From Halobacteriovorax sp. HLS (GTDB lineage Bacteria; Bdellovibrionota; Bacteriovoracia; Bacteriovoracales; Bacteriovoracaceae): a stretch of DNA of 64,000 bases. Positions 9,501 to 15,256 of the stretch are shown here, piece after piece; within the stretch, counting starts at the first letter, position 1, and the number at the start of each line of letters is the position of its first letter. The notes beneath the pieces were generated by a model. The model was not told the DNA's origin. It made no database searches and saw only the letters and a list, made by a program, of their open reading frames with translations. The DNA lies in NCBI RefSeq assembly GCF_004006665.1, contig NZ_QOCL01000013.1, positions 62,001 to 126,000 on the forward strand. The letters run 5' to 3'. A program made the position numbers and the translations under genes.

Positions 9501-9975
9501 TCAAGACTTCTTGATGGAGGCCAGAAAAATTACTGAATTTCTAGCTGAAGACCTTTGGCCTTTGGCCCTTAGAACTCTAGCGAAAACATACTGGGTTAAA
9601 GACGAGGTCTTTGTTTCGCATCAAATGATATCTCCGCTACAAAAAAGTCTTGATGATCTTGCTTATGGTAAATTAGGTAAGCGTTACAAGAAAACTTTTA
9701 TAAATAGACCTGGTTTTGATATTTTTGGGAAAACTATTGAATTTGATATTTCTCCTAAACCTTGGATGCTTAGAACCATGAGGCATTTTAGGCTTCTACG
9801 TTTTATTCTTCCGGCCTGGCATAGAAAAGAACGTAAGATCAATCAAGAGATTAGAGCTAAGTTAAATGAAATATATAATTTAGAACAATCACAGCAATAT
9901 AGTGCTCTGAAGAGATTAGAAAATATTAAAGGCTATAGAGAAGTACTTTACAAGAAAGCTGAGCTAGTTCTGTGA
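6559..9975 (+). CDS. Single-chain indolepyruvate:ferredoxin oxidoreductase (IorA-IorB fusion)
   Basis: The enzyme oxidatively decarboxylates aryl-pyruvates (indolepyruvate, phenylpyruvate, 4-hydroxyphenylpyruvate) to aryl-acetyl-CoA, passing electrons to ferredoxin. Domains in order: pyrimidine-binding domain with TGYPGSPLADY (about 20-30); thiamine diphosphate domain with CPGCPHRE near 395 and GDSTFFHSG at 470 followed by DNDNTAMTGHQ; an iron-sulfur segment with Cys607, 610, 613 and 619 and a second looser Cys group near 640-652; and the gamma domain from about 700 with GVGGSGVTT and GLAQRNGNVTGH. The 1138 residues agree with the single-chain proteobacterial form; the roughly 250 C-terminal residues are family-specific. 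The next gene overlaps by 4 bases (GTGA), indicating coupling. Divergence from hpd places two enzymes that compete for aryl-pyruvates on one control region. Confidence 0.93.
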   Translation: MSIEILNGNELIVQGGLEAGFNLYTGYPGSPLADYFNILYKRKDEFQAKGIRVAIANSEANAAAMASGAKQAGRDCLVAMKSMGLHVASDALSVGNFANPGATTIDEQTGEEIFPGVVIAVGDDPWSMSTSTPADSRYLYKHLHIPFLEPSTPQELKDWMALALQISKRTSVYQGLLLTTYMAEGGGRVEVKEHKVVDGSIKTLDPSTFDLSKNVMVPPNSLKADVSMIEERFPKVVKVLNELKLDQILGNSESKIGFISTGVVYETLKQVLEEGSLLGHFSLYKIACSYPLADAQLLDYLKGLDTLVVVEEKRGFLENELKSFCSTHDIKLKFFGKEFSSAEGFPSHGGLSYEIVLSKVKELLGVFKLDLCSDLKHEFSNLDMDLPRRLPTFCPGCPHRETLSLLKDLRSVLKDQEGLNLLSHGDVGCYSLSFLPPFKEMHNLSAMGQGGALGAGVDIFSDNPSVVLMGDSTFFHSGLTDISNSLQLGHNITYILLDNDNTAMTGHQMTPASGISVEGIKRPRQNMLSVVQGLGVTQSFEVNPSDRYFYKNLLLDIVHREGVKVIVSNKECGLTFHGRQKSIDRKTFASNKTVAKKEFYQINTSVCEDCRECVENTGCPGLTQIHGAYGTKVAIDPQICVADSYCTKIKACPSFELVEVSDYHPTKYKDSKKISVNLDSIELPKPLKSFEDIANGRDWRMVVTGVGGSGVTTISRVVSYAAVEMNGRDDLDFKFMDQKGLAQRNGNVTGHLTIFKKGQSRGAVTPLGTADLLVSPDLLDASGQLQFLGENSLAIIDKNFQIPLSILLDDGVNKPTLTETQLRAELSNTLGDRVTLSAMKSLCNDLLGKSVYASAMILGVAFQSGALPFTFENMKKAFSETIRKEELEANWQAFNLGRKVYLHGDQSVRDQYFKKSASINEVALLKKSILESFCSWQKKDFFVELFENSHKKLSTLFPNIKNTHLAHYLHDQYIYNRGVNIQDFLMEARKITEFLAEDLWPLALRTLAKTYWVKDEVFVSHQMISPLQKSLDDLAYGKLGKRYKKTFINRPGFDIFGKTIEFDISPKPWMLRTMRHFRLLRFILPAWHRKERKINQEIRAKLNEIYNLEQSQQYSALKRLENIKGYREVLYKKAELVL

Positions 9976-11300
9976 GAGAGTCGGTTAGTGCAATATTCGT
10001 CTTTGAAGATGAAGTCTTTTCAATTCAGAGACAGAATTACTTATCCGTATTCCCTGGATATTGTGCTTTTCCTGGGGGAAAGGTCGATAAAGAAGACTCT
10101 AATGTAGCATTAGTTTCCCATGATCTTTTTGCAGATAAAGAAAGTTATCAACTAAATGCTCTGTTTAGAGAAGTAAGTGAAGAGCTTAATTTTGATGTAC
10201 TAGCTAATTTAAATCGTATTGTTTCCATTGATATGATCGGTATTGCGATTACTCCTGAGTTTAATCCATATCGATTTAAAAACTTTTACTTTAGAATAAC
10301 TCTTAATGAGAAAGTATCATTTGTTGTTGATGAAGGAGAGGCAAAGAGTGCAAGGTGGTCAAAGGCACATGAACTTTTAGAGAGATATGAAAGAGCTGAG
10401 ATTTTGGCCGTACCTCCTGCCGTAAAGCTTTTTAAGGCCCTTGATAGAGATATACAATTTTCTCACTCTATTGATTTGTCCCTTGAACATGATCCAGCAA
10501 CTGAAACGCCTATGATTGAAAGTCTCTACGGTGTTAAGCAGTTCTTGCCATTGTCTCATACATTTCCACCTGCAAATAGAACGAATTGCTTTTTAATAGG
10601 GGATAAACACTCTGTCTTAATTGATCCGTCTCCAAAAGATGAAATTGAATTAGCTAAATTGAAGAATCACTTATCTAAGTTTCAGGTTAACGAGATTTTC
10701 CTAACTCATCATCATCCTGATCATCATGAACATAGTGTTGAATTAGCAAAGTTTTACGATGTTAAAATTGGTCTAAGCTTAGATACACATACTAGAATTC
10801 TCAGTAAACACGGCCAAGACTACTTTCAGAATTTAGAGCTTAACTACTATAAAGAAGGAGATATTCTTACTCAATCTCTCGGTCAAGATGTTCTAGTTTA
10901 TGAAGTTCCAGGACATGATGAAGGTCAACTTGCATTGGCACCAAGAAATCTGAACTGGTTTATAGTAGGAGATCTTATCCAATCAGTTGGTACTGTTGTT
11001 ATTGGTGCCCCTGAAGGTGATATGAGTAAGTACTTTAACAGTTTAGAAAAAGTTATTAAACTTGCTCCAAGATTTGTTATTCCTTCTCATGGTATAGCTT
11101 TAGGTGGAGTTCATAAATTAAAGATGACGTTAAAGCACCGAAAGATGCGCGAAGAAAAGATTCGCTCTTTACTAGAGCACTCACATACAAATGAAGAAAT
11201 TCTTGATATCATTTATGAAGGGCTAGATAAGAGACTAACACCATATGCTCTTAAAACTATTGAGGCCCATATAGTTAAAATTAAGTCAGAATTAACCTAA
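9972..11300 (+). CDS. Nudix hydrolase / metallo-beta-lactamase fusion protein
   Basis: The N-terminal half resembles the NUDT7/NUDT19-like Nudix group, many of which cleave CoA or acyl-CoA: FPGGKV at 33-38 and REVSEEL at 66-72, with a longer insert than the standard Nudix box. The C-terminal half is a metallo-beta-lactamase fold hydrolase of the LACTB2/glyoxalase II type: THHHPDHH at 245-252 supplies the HxHxDH metal ligands, then GHDEGQLAL near 317 and GDLIQSVG near 338, with IPSHG near 375. The start is GTG, overlapping the stop of the oxidoreductase gene as GTGA. The pairing of a possible CoA-pyrophosphatase with a possible thioesterase beside an aryl-acetyl-CoA producer suggests acyl-CoA housekeeping. 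This role is inference; the two domain families are clear. Confidence 0.85.
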   Translation: MRESVSAIFVFEDEVFSIQRQNYLSVFPGYCAFPGGKVDKEDSNVALVSHDLFADKESYQLNALFREVSEELNFDVLANLNRIVSIDMIGIAITPEFNPYRFKNFYFRITLNEKVSFVVDEGEAKSARWSKAHELLERYERAEILAVPPAVKLFKALDRDIQFSHSIDLSLEHDPATETPMIESLYGVKQFLPLSHTFPPANRTNCFLIGDKHSVLIDPSPKDEIELAKLKNHLSKFQVNEIFLTHHHPDHHEHSVELAKFYDVKIGLSLDTHTRILSKHGQDYFQNLELNYYKEGDILTQSLGQDVLVYEVPGHDEGQLALAPRNLNWFIVGDLIQSVGTVVIGAPEGDMSKYFNSLEKVIKLAPRFVIPSHGIALGGVHKLKMTLKHRKMREEKIRSLLEHSHTNEEILDIIYEGLDKRLTPYALKTIEAHIVKIKSELT

Positions 11301-11354: not shown

Positions 11355-14210
11355 ATGAAAATGCTCTTTTGTCTAACATTACTCACAGTCTCCTTAAACT
11401 CTTTTGCGTTTAAGTTACCAAAACTCGATCAGCAAGAACTCAATATTCATCATATAAGGATGATTAAGAATGCGTTTATTGATTTTTCAAAAGATATTGA
11501 AAAAAATAATTCGTATGAAGAGTCTAGTTTTGTTCAAGTTCAGAATTTCTTTTTGACCGTGGCCTATGCTGAAGATGGAAAGTGTTTCTTTGGTGGATGG
11601 CCTAGTCGTATGCAAGGAGAGATTTGTAAAGCACCTTGGTCTCATGGAGATGATTCTTGGGCATCTAATATTCAATGTATTGATCCTCAAAGCTCCAAGA
11701 GCGCAAGCTGTAATGAAGTCGTGAACTATAGATACAGCACTTGTGGTTCAAGAGGGAAGTTTAGATGTAACCCTCTGCTCTTTGGCTCAGATGCAAACGG
11801 AGATGGAAAGTGTGTTGAAACTAATGGAACTTATAAAAAATTAACTCAGAAATGTGTTGATCAAACCAAAGGGTCGCCAGAGCTTAGAGAAGGAGAGAAA
11901 TTCCTTAAAGATAATCCTAAGCTCTTAGAGGAATACAAAAATAGTGTTGAAAGATTTTGTATCGAAACACATAGGGAAGATCCAGAGTATGATCATAATA
12001 AAACTTGTGACGCTCTAAGAGAGAGACTTTCAGATATTGTTGGAACTGCTAAGAAAGACTTGGCCGAAACAGTTGAAGGTGAAGAAGCTTCTGTTGTATA
12101 TGTCAACAAAGCACTCGGAATTTTAGATAAGTGTCAAAAAGATTATAGCGCTTCAAAAGATGGAGCAATTTCGAAGTTTTTCTCAAGCAGAAGAAACTCC
12201 TTAAGTCAGATGGTGGATTATGGTAAATGCTCTCTTGAGGAAGTTGATACTTCAATCACAACAGAGGAGTTAGATAGACTTGTGTCTGACTTTGATGATG
12301 TCTCAAAAGAAACTTTTCCAAAAGAAATTCTACAAGACTCTGTTAACACTGGAGTCGAGCTAACACTTAAGAACTTAATGTTTACAATGGATCAGTTTGG
12401 TGAAGATATAAACTTAGAAAAAGTTCTAAAGAAGTATCCATATCTTAACAAGAGTCCATATAAACAAAGAGTTAATTCTTCTATAGCAGATTTTAAAAAA
12501 GCAAAGAAGTCTGGTGCTCTTGATAAAACAAAGATTAATAAATCAGAGATTGTGAAAAATTTAAATCATTTCTCAGATAGGATAAACTCTCTTTGTCAGA
12601 GAATAAATACAGAGTACACAAAGCGTATAAAATCAAGAGATTCGAGTAAGAAAATAAAAAGTGGTATGTTCATGAATTCTGAGTCTGAGCAGAACTATTA
12701 TGACCAAACGCAAGTTGAAATGACTGCAATGTATCAAGATTTTCTAGACTCTGATCAAATGAATATATCCAGACTTATGGCAACAGACCATTTTAAAAGT
12801 GATATTTTTCCTTTTAGTAGTGGCCTATCTGAAAAATGTGCTGAGGGTGATATAGATAATATCGCCTTTACTCCAGTAGGAGAGGAAGATATCTCTGAAG
12901 CGATGGAAGATTATAAAGAGTTAATGTTAGATGAACTAGATGACTATGACTCGATGGCAAAAGTTAGAAAATATGGTGACGTTGAAGATGGTATTCATGA
13001 ATTGATTAAGTATAGACCATATTTACTTGGTAATACTTTAAAGAAGAATAGGAATAATCCAGATTTACAAAATATTTATGCAAGCTATCTTTGTAAAGAA
13101 TCTTTGGACGTCTATTCTAGTGACGAGCTTTGGAGAATTGGTGAAGTTACAGCTGGCGGTGTAGGACTTGTTGTCTCAGGGGCCTTGATGGCCACAGGAA
13201 TTGGTTCTCCTCTAGGAGTTGGTCTTGCTGCAGCTTCTGGTACCTTAGTTGCTGCTGAAGGGGCGATGGCCGTTTCAAGTTATGTTGATGCTGATCAAGC
13301 TGCTGATGCTTCTAGTGCGAGTTTTGCGACTGAATCTATATCTATGGATCAACATATTTCAAATAATGATTCTGCCGATAGAAAAAAGACTGAGGCCCTA
13401 GTTACTGGTGGAGTTGCACTGATACAGCCTCTTGCATTTCTTTCTAAATCAGCTAAAACGGCTCGAACCGGACTACAAGTTGCAAAGGTCTCAGATGAAG
13501 GTTCTACTACGGTTAAAGCAGCTGCATATGCTTCTGATGACGTACTACGTTTAACAGATGAAAGTCGCGCAGGGACTTCTGTAGTTAAGACCGCTTCTAG
13601 AGCTACAACTAAACCAAAGAAGTCAACACGACTAAGCAGACGTAAAGAACAAAAGGCCAGGGCCAAGGCAAGAGCACAAGAAAAGGCACAGGCTAAAGCT
13701 AAAGCAGATGCTGATATGAAGGCGAAAGCTCAAGCAAAGGCCAAAGCAGAAGCTGATATGAAGGCGAAGGCGCAAGCAAAGGCCAAAGCGGATGCTGATA
13801 TGAAGGCAAAGGCCCAAGCTAAAGCTAAAGCGGATGCAGATATGAAAGCTAAGGCAAAGGCCGATGCTAAGGCAAAAGCTCAGGCAAGATCAAGTGCTAG
13901 CTCTTCTGGAGAGTATAAAACAAAGAAAGATTTTGCGAACTTTATTCAAAAAGAGTTTGAGACGGTCAAAACTTTACCAAGTGAAGCTGTAAAGGGAAGA
14001 ACTTTTAGATCAATTGAAGGTGTTAAGAATGTTATGAAAGCAATTACTGGTAAAGATTATTCTAAATTTACAAAACAAGAGCTTAGAAAAGAAATTAAAA
14101 GACTTTCAACTATATTCCATCCTGATAAGTATCATGGGAAGAATGATTTCTTTGTTAACTCTGTTAAAGATGAGATGACTATAGTTAATGCTCTAAAAGA
14201 CGCACTTTAG
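11355..14210 (+). CDS. Large secreted protein with Lys/Ala repeat and C-terminal J-domain
   Basis: The 951-residue product begins with a signal peptide (MKMLFCLTLLTVSLNSFA). Residues 20-590 are Cys-containing and mostly polar, without a domain I recognise. A Gly/Ala-rich hydrophobic stretch at about 596-640 could enter a membrane. Residues about 756-846 are a Lys/Ala/Asp repeat, 14 residues per unit. The last 65 residues look like a J-domain: ELRKEIKRLSTIFHPDKYHG has the HPD motif at 922-924 placed after a basic helix, followed by a short third helix. J-domains stimulate Hsp70 proteins, so an exported one is odd: either it works on the periplasmic side, or it is delivered elsewhere. The next gene, also secreted, starts 8 bases later. 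J-domain call is fairly firm; overall role unknown. Confidence 0.8.
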   Translation: MKMLFCLTLLTVSLNSFAFKLPKLDQQELNIHHIRMIKNAFIDFSKDIEKNNSYEESSFVQVQNFFLTVAYAEDGKCFFGGWPSRMQGEICKAPWSHGDDSWASNIQCIDPQSSKSASCNEVVNYRYSTCGSRGKFRCNPLLFGSDANGDGKCVETNGTYKKLTQKCVDQTKGSPELREGEKFLKDNPKLLEEYKNSVERFCIETHREDPEYDHNKTCDALRERLSDIVGTAKKDLAETVEGEEASVVYVNKALGILDKCQKDYSASKDGAISKFFSSRRNSLSQMVDYGKCSLEEVDTSITTEELDRLVSDFDDVSKETFPKEILQDSVNTGVELTLKNLMFTMDQFGEDINLEKVLKKYPYLNKSPYKQRVNSSIADFKKAKKSGALDKTKINKSEIVKNLNHFSDRINSLCQRINTEYTKRIKSRDSSKKIKSGMFMNSESEQNYYDQTQVEMTAMYQDFLDSDQMNISRLMATDHFKSDIFPFSSGLSEKCAEGDIDNIAFTPVGEEDISEAMEDYKELMLDELDDYDSMAKVRKYGDVEDGIHELIKYRPYLLGNTLKKNRNNPDLQNIYASYLCKESLDVYSSDELWRIGEVTAGGVGLVVSGALMATGIGSPLGVGLAAASGTLVAAEGAMAVSSYVDADQAADASSASFATESISMDQHISNNDSADRKKTEALVTGGVALIQPLAFLSKSAKTARTGLQVAKVSDEGSTTVKAAAYASDDVLRLTDESRAGTSVVKTASRATTKPKKSTRLSRRKEQKARAKARAQEKAQAKAKADADMKAKAQAKAKAEADMKAKAQAKAKADADMKAKAQAKAKADADMKAKAKADAKAKAQARSSASSSGEYKTKKDFANFIQKEFETVKTLPSEAVKGRTFRSIEGVKNVMKAITGKDYSKFTKQELRKEIKRLSTIFHPDKYHGKNDFFVNSVKDEMTIVNALKDAL
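13704..13871 (+). repeat. 42-bp tandem repeat encoding a Lys/Ala/Asp 14-mer
   Basis: The sequence GATATGAA recurs with its ATG at 13716, 13758, 13800 and 13842, exactly 42 bases apart. The encoded unit reads roughly ADMKAKAQAKAKAD and should form a highly charged continuous helix. Copies differ mainly at third codon positions (GCT, GCA, GCG, GCC), so the array is not a very recent duplication. Confidence 0.85.
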
Positions 14211-14218
14211 GATATGAA

Positions 14219-15256
14219 ATGAATAATTTTACTTTGAAAGTATTACTTTTACTCTGCCTGTGCTTTTCAGTAAGTGCAAAGGAGAGATTTGTTAGTTATA
14301 CAGAAGCATTTGATGTCTTCGAGATTGTCGATCAAATATCTGCCTGGCATCCAAATACTCGAAGTCAGTATAGGCAGTACTTTGATAAGACTTTCACTCT
14401 ATCAATGAGTGATAAATTAATGCTTGATAAGTATGCAAAGGTTCGCTCTAAGTATCACACACTCTATCCTGATGCAGAAAACTCAATTTTTTCAGAAGAA
14501 GCAATTGCAAATGATTCCTTATCAAGTTCCTTTTCATCTCAGTCTACTGTGGATCGATCGATCGCATTTTTGCGTAAAAAGAATAAAATTAAAGACGGTG
14601 ATCTCAAGGAATTAGTCAGCGTCTATAAGCATTTTAAACCTCAGGTATCAAAAATTGTAAGAGAAAGTGCTCTATTGCACGATGAGGCCAAGCGACTAAA
14701 TAAGATTTTAAAAAAATCAAAAATTCTTAGTAATATAAAGAAACTAGATAAGTTCTTTGATCTACCAACTCATAGAATTAAAAATGGAAGAATTAAGCTC
14801 GTCTGGTTACCTGCGACGAGTGAACCTATGGTGGACTATAGAGGTGGTAGAGTCATTATAAGAATGAATCCTGTTAAACATTCAAAACTCATCGGTGAAG
14901 ATTTTGTTCTCTATTCTTTAGTTGACTCATTATTTGTTTCATTAAGTAAGAATAAGAAAGAGAACTTCTCTAAAATCTTCGTAGATGGATGCCCTAAAAT
15001 CAAAACGAAATCCATGCCAAAAGAGTTTTGGTTTCAGGCACCACTAGTAGAGGCCTTTAGTCGTTACTACTTAAAAGAGCTAAAGAATAAAAAAGCATTC
15101 AACCCTTACGAGATTAAATCTTCCTCCCCGTGGACGAGTAGTTTTTCGAGCTTTCTCTATGGACTAAGTAGTTATTCAATCAAGAGAAAGTCTAAGCTTG
15201 ATAGAGAATTTATGACAATATCTGCTAATTACTGCTCTCAATTGCTTAGTATTTAA
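14219..15256 (+). CDS. Secreted protein of unknown function
   Basis: The 345 residues start with a clear signal peptide (MNNFTLKVLLLLCLCFSVSA, cleavage before KERF). The remainder is basic and probably mostly helical, with no lipobox, transmembrane segment or known catalytic motif. There are two late cysteines (about 262 and 340). It follows the J-domain protein gene by 8 bases, so the two are likely co-expressed and may form an exported pair. I do not recognise the family. Confidence 0.7.
   Translation: MNNFTLKVLLLLCLCFSVSAKERFVSYTEAFDVFEIVDQISAWHPNTRSQYRQYFDKTFTLSMSDKLMLDKYAKVRSKYHTLYPDAENSIFSEEAIANDSLSSSFSSQSTVDRSIAFLRKKNKIKDGDLKELVSVYKHFKPQVSKIVRESALLHDEAKRLNKILKKSKILSNIKKLDKFFDLPTHRIKNGRIKLVWLPATSEPMVDYRGGRVIIRMNPVKHSKLIGEDFVLYSLVDSLFVSLSKNKKENFSKIFVDGCPKIKTKSMPKEFWFQAPLVEAFSRYYLKELKNKKAFNPYEIKSSSPWTSSFSSFLYGLSSYSIKRKSKLDREFMTISANYCSQLLSI

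Follow-up and report, generated by a model that had tools for sequence, protein, structure and literature searches.

An exported carrier protein ending in a divergent J-domain in Halobacteriovorax, and the putative carrier and cargo units of predatory Bdellovibrionota

It is in the window, a stretch of 64,000 nucleotides from Halobacteriovorax sp. HLS, where we found an exported 951-residue protein that, judging from its sequence and those of its relatives, is very probably the one-chain version of a unit of predatory Bdellovibrionota made of an exported carrier and a swappable cargo. This carrier and cargo relationship is the main result, and it goes beyond the view of the first-pass annotation of this DNA, which had described an exported protein ending in a J-domain. 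The explanation that best fits the whole of the observations is a carrier and cargo in one chain, whose J-domain would be delivered to the DnaK of the prey, and we give it a probability of about 0.6. Little is understood of the means by which intraperiplasmic predators influence the cytoplasm of their prey from beyond its inner membrane. A carrier that is conserved and exported and whose exchangeable cargo acts in the cytoplasm would, if true, be a concrete candidate for such a delivery. These units are also present in Bdellovibrio-like genomes, for which laboratory strains and genetics are available, and a J-domain aimed at prey DnaK would, if true, allow chaperone takeover in the prey to be tested directly. 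To our knowledge, it would be the first J-domain that one bacterium directs against the DnaK of another.

Architecture and J-domain of the window protein

The open reading frame (11355..14210, as all features of this protein on the forward strand) starts with an ATG at a position that fits the N-terminal alignment with two orthologues of the same genus, G003 (60% identity) and G004 (59%), both found at the same site with the same flanking genes. Its putative signal peptide (residues 1-19, 11355..11411; MKMLFCLTLLTVSLNSFA followed by F), read by sequence and hydropathy only, belongs to a hydrophobic N-terminus kept in the orthologues. A profile search delimited a Cys-rich N-terminal ectodomain with 10 Cys (residues 30-235, 11442..12059), and an alignment of relatives, A4, together with searches, delimited the carrier module (residues 480-700, 12792..13454). 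Inside the latter, hydropathy and the pN/pS values by segment mark a Gly/Ala-rich hydrophobic hairpin (residues 596-640, 13140..13274) made of two segments, one spanning about residues 596-616 and the other about 616-640; a third and weaker hydrophobic segment follows at residues 679-697 (13389..13445). All 15 Cys that follow the signal peptide lie before the hairpin, within residues 20-595, and the whole family of the window protein has none beyond residue 595. After the hairpin comes a linker (residues 701-853) that is strongly basic, with a net charge of +23 over 157 residues, and holds Lys/Ala/Asp-rich 14-residue repeats, recovered by TRF as a 42-nt unit in 4.1 copies with 84% match (13683..13856). 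The chain ends in a divergent J-domain (residues 881-951, 13995..14207) with the HPD tripeptide at 14118-14126. The first-pass annotation was therefore correct in placing a signal peptide, an ectodomain, a hairpin-like segment, a 14-mer repeat and an HPD-bearing J-domain in one chain. Other Pfam matches of the protein (SidC lipid-binding, holin) were all under the cutoff, and membership of TolA was rejected, given that its 47.2 bits stay below the equivalog cutoff of 59.45 and that the match, limited to the Lys/Ala repeat at 752-863, reflects composition.

The C-terminal 70 residues or so are a divergent J-domain, well supported by profile comparison of sequences, and Pfam alone misses it (PF00226, E=0.05, 14.1 bits against a cutoff of 27.8). 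When a profile of the three orthologues was searched against PDB sequences, all 11 matches at E<10 were J-domain proteins (best E=0.012). With hhalign, the domain scored 32.0 against DnaJ J-domains, where none of 200 column shuffles exceeded 18.3, and better still, 37.9, against the exported J proteins of its relatives described below (shuffle maximum 17.7). Helix-II residues of the window family agree with those of DnaJ, and the structure prediction of residues 880-951, by single-sequence AlphaFold, gave three helices, with HPD on the loop that joins the second to the third, at a mean pLDDT of 78, in line with the J-fold that the first-pass annotation expected there. It is very improbable that HPD arose by chance in an unrelated helical tail without any J-domain; the weak Pfam value would suit such a chance motif, and Foldseek on single-sequence models found no confident match, with J-domains only among the weak ones, but the profile comparisons lie far beyond their shuffled controls, and every match to a solved structure was a J-domain protein. 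By the same procedure, a J-like tail seen by eye in another protein, L080, was rejected with an hhalign score of 14.0, inside the shuffled range.

The complete fusion is rare, since the search for this architecture in other predators found it in only 3 of the 129 genomes of the class, although the hairpin module occurs in 53 of them. The gene is absent from two further genomes of the genus, and one named relative among the searched genome contigs is an uncultured Halobacteriovorax contig. Conservation among the orthologues peaks in the hairpin (84-91% identity) and is lowest in the fast-evolving linker. Purifying selection acts on the J-domain, as the C-terminal domain shows a pN of 0.21-0.24 against a pS of 0.64-0.85. 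The window protein and G004 retain HPD, which reads HGD in G003, whose Gly codon GGA is two nucleotide changes away from CCT. The invariant Asp is retained in this HGD, and a simulation study presents that Asp as the mechanistic residue of the tripeptide (PMC7289447).

Carriers and cargoes among predatory Bdellovibrionota

The relatives of the hairpin module, collected with profile A4, are exported proteins, and besides the genomes of the class, further families of the phylum have them too. The carrier gene overlaps, start to stop, the gene of an exported J protein in eight Bdellovibrio-like genomes and in two from Bacteriovoracaceae. The clearest layout is that of G017, where a 567-residue carrier is followed, at an ATGA overlap with its stop and with AAGGAG upstream, by a 221-residue J protein that has a signal peptide, a canonical J-domain (PF00226, E=9e-25) with intact HPD, a Lys/Ala/Glu/Pro-rich tail and a single Cys near the C-terminus. 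In genus g83, all 8 recovered carriers are coupled to an exported J protein that matches the J-domain HMM and has HPD; the Pfam scan of 5 of these 8 gave E=2e-15 to 6e-20, and the coupled J protein of G300 was scanned too. The signal peptide of the g83 proteins looks cleavable, ending in most of them in AxA before QT, and no other membrane segment follows it; their tails are of low complexity and Lys/Ala-rich, with a C-terminal C-G-x-x-F motif. The coupled exported J protein of G099 carries a degenerate HEA.

Several related proteins were also observed. G005 encodes an exported 274-residue protein with a canonical J-domain at its end (L209:5385-6209, forward strand; E=3.9e-18) and no adjacent carrier. 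The window's own genome holds a second carrier on contig C3 (L180:1995-4028, reverse strand), with a C-terminal Cys and no overlapping cargo gene. In G039, from another family of the phylum, a large protein (L208:1-4158, forward strand) combines a hydrophobic region with a J-domain located a long way from the N-terminus.

One of the g83 genomes, G189, is a single contig of 3,782,950 bp that we take to be the chromosome of Bdellovibrio bacteriovorus HD100, with its dnaJ at 1,227 kb presumably being Bd1296. The coupled pair lies at about 626.3-628.7 kb. Its J gene is the sole DnaJ-like reading frame at 610-650 kb, and linear interpolation from that dnaJ places it near tag 663; because of this position, the coupled exported J protein is probably Bd0677. 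Expression of Bd0677, annotated as a dnaJ homologue, falls 6-fold from attack phase to host-independent growth, in a study that treats it as an ordinary DnaJ homologue (PMC2797640), whereas here it is read as a coupled exported J protein.

The J-domain is not the only cargo. An EndoU RNase is fused to the carrier in L034 of G021 (PF14436, E=6e-11) and appears as a coupled exported gene, with a GMHT-H motif, in L268 of G081 (E=4e-8). A domain that we call kinase-like from our own motif reading, with no Pfam match, forms the tail of L082 in G117 and a coupled gene in L199 of G106, the two being related at E=7e-25. In G029, an exported Fic protein with the motif HPFLDGNGR (L195:643-1728, reverse strand; E=8e-6) overlaps a carrier gene. 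The J, EndoU and kinase-like cargo types are thus all found both fused and separate, and one carrier module bears all three, so that a conserved N-terminal part is combined with variable C-terminal domains, as in polymorphic toxins. The Cys-rich N-terminal domain recurs before other domains as well, as in G111, where it precedes an L,D-transpeptidase domain (L083:414-1955, forward strand; YkuD_2, E=1.2e-15).

Two further features of this set deserve mention. Three coupled exported proteins of 680-830 residues (L272:2845-5325, L273:2717-4771 and L305:1-2499) have one Cys directly after the signal peptide and share the motif C-x2-L-x2-F/Y-x-D-L-A. The long fused carriers L031 and L034 show HEARH and HEATH before the C-terminal domain, possibly from metallopeptidase domains.

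The position of Cys separates the two forms. Among complete carriers, 32 of the 35 with a short tail have a Cys in their last 8 residues, against 5 of the 31 with a long or fused tail (Fisher p=3e-10), a value that overstates the case because the boundary of the short tail, at most 225 residues after the module, was drawn after the data had been seen, and the sequences are related. Exactly one Cys follows the signal peptide in 16 of the 19 coupled cargos. A terminal Cys on separate carriers, a single Cys on the cargo and mostly none in the fused forms together suggest a pair held by a disulfide, for which, on these sequence patterns, we see even odds; fusion would make such a bridge needless, which may be why the terminal Cys is mostly absent from fused forms.

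Where the J-domain may act

In the mechanism that we propose, the fused protein would leave the predator cytoplasm by Sec, as read from its signal peptide, the hairpin would insert into the prey inner membrane, and the cargo would pass on into the cytoplasm of the prey. Where carrier and cargo come from two genes, the terminal Cys of the carrier and the single Cys of the cargo would be joined by a disulfide and released in the reducing prey cytoplasm, while in the fused form the linker would stand in for this bridge. In the prey, the J-domain would dock on prey DnaK and stimulate its ATPase, so capturing or redirecting the chaperone. AB-type toxins consist of two parts linked by a disulfide, and the likeness to them, with a membrane-inserting carrier, a cytoplasm-acting cargo and one disulfide, would be one of concept only, with no sequence relation.

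Because the cargo activities depend on Hsp70, ATP or RNA and the periplasm is not expected to offer any of these, the prey cytoplasm is the most likely site, and action there seems to us rather probable; that the target is prey DnaK we favour by a smaller measure. The first-pass annotation held that DnaK is cytoplasmic, and this agrees with the window's genome, where the one canonical DnaK has no signal peptide and no exported Hsp70 was found. Its suggestion that the J-domain could enter the cytoplasm of the prey and enlist the Hsp70 there gains from the coupled exported J proteins and from the EndoU, Fic and kinase-like cargoes and loses from the HGD of one orthologue, with delivery and Hsp70 binding being the inferred parts. 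Also against the proposed mechanism count the moderate hydrophobicity and high Gly content of the hairpin, the basic linker, which would equally suit a cytoplasmic C-terminus of a membrane protein, and the rarity of the fused J form in the class.

Its other suggestion, a protein spanning the membrane with the J-domain inside, is disfavoured. Such a Sec63/DjlA-like topology would have a periplasmic ectodomain and an odd number of membrane segments, so that the basic linker and the J-domain would come to lie in the predator's cytoplasm and tether its DnaK to the inner membrane. Hydropathy permits it, given the three possible hydrophobic segments and the strongly basic stretch that follows them, and the cytoplasmic location of the canonical DnaK and the DjlA-like membrane-anchored C-terminal J proteins of the same genome (L003) would suit it. 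The third segment is weak, however, an EndoU RNase placed as the J-domain is would attack RNA of the predator itself, and, above all, the separate J proteins carry cleavable-looking signal peptides and no other membrane segment, and for this last reason we regard the topology as unlikely. Slightly less probable still is that a degenerate J-fold serves outside the cell as a structural adaptor or binding module, without any Hsp70. The HGD of G003, the HEA of the G099 coupled protein and the weak Pfam score would fit such an adaptor, and from the first two it does follow that strict Hsp70 activation is not kept in every member, but HPD is intact in the window protein, in G004, in G017 and in all eight g83 proteins, and the agreement of helix II with DnaJ and the purifying selection on the domain also speak against an adaptor.

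Extending delivery to prey DnaK to the whole set, we tentatively propose, with somewhat more doubt than trust, that predatory Bdellovibrionota may possess a general export device made of two parts. A hairpin carrier with a terminal Cys, exported by Sec, and a translationally coupled single-Cys cargo would form their disulfide in the predator periplasm and separate in the prey cytoplasm; the effectors would be interchangeable, the most conserved being the J protein that takes over prey DnaK, and the window gene would be a natural fusion of the two parts.

Known systems and neighbouring genes

By its way of working, the window protein would be most like HopI1, and by its modular design like polymorphic toxins, both by analogy. 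HopI1, a type III effector of Pseudomonas syringae, binds the Hsp70 of its host, whose ATPase it stimulates (PMC4617103); compared by architecture and J-domain, both are exported proteins with disordered repeats before a C-terminal J-domain, but HopI1 uses type III secretion and acts in plant cells, whereas the window protein has a Sec-type signal peptide, a large Cys-rich ectodomain, a hairpin carrier and a likely bacterial target. Polymorphic toxins have a conserved exported N-terminal part and swappable C-terminal domains, EndoU included, and immunity separates them from toxins aimed at distant organisms (PMC3482391); the window protein differs in using a Sec signal peptide and in lacking a linked immunity gene, and the accessible text of that source nowhere uses the term DnaJ. 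Plasmodium is reported to export J-domain proteins into its host cell (PMC8544838, PMC13327048), but it is a eukaryote with another export route and other domains. The phage Rb43-type protein 057w is described as a J-domain protein of foreign origin that acts on the DnaK of bacteria (PMC3486835), and it differs in being phage-encoded, made inside the infected cell and not exported. In the open-access literature that was searched, no account of predatory bacteria exporting J-domain proteins came to light.

The downstream gene at 14219-15256 was considered as an immunity partner and rejected, because it is conserved beside the carboxylase operon in genomes without the J protein (G001, G002 and other genera). 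It encodes a 345-residue exported protein and lies beside an acyl-CoA carboxylase operon in several genera, with or without the J protein. In other genera, a different large exported protein is often found upstream of it, and these were discarded as relatives since they look unrelated to the window protein. On the other side, the gene at 9972-11300 appears by eye to join a Nudix-like domain to a metallo-beta-lactamase-like one.
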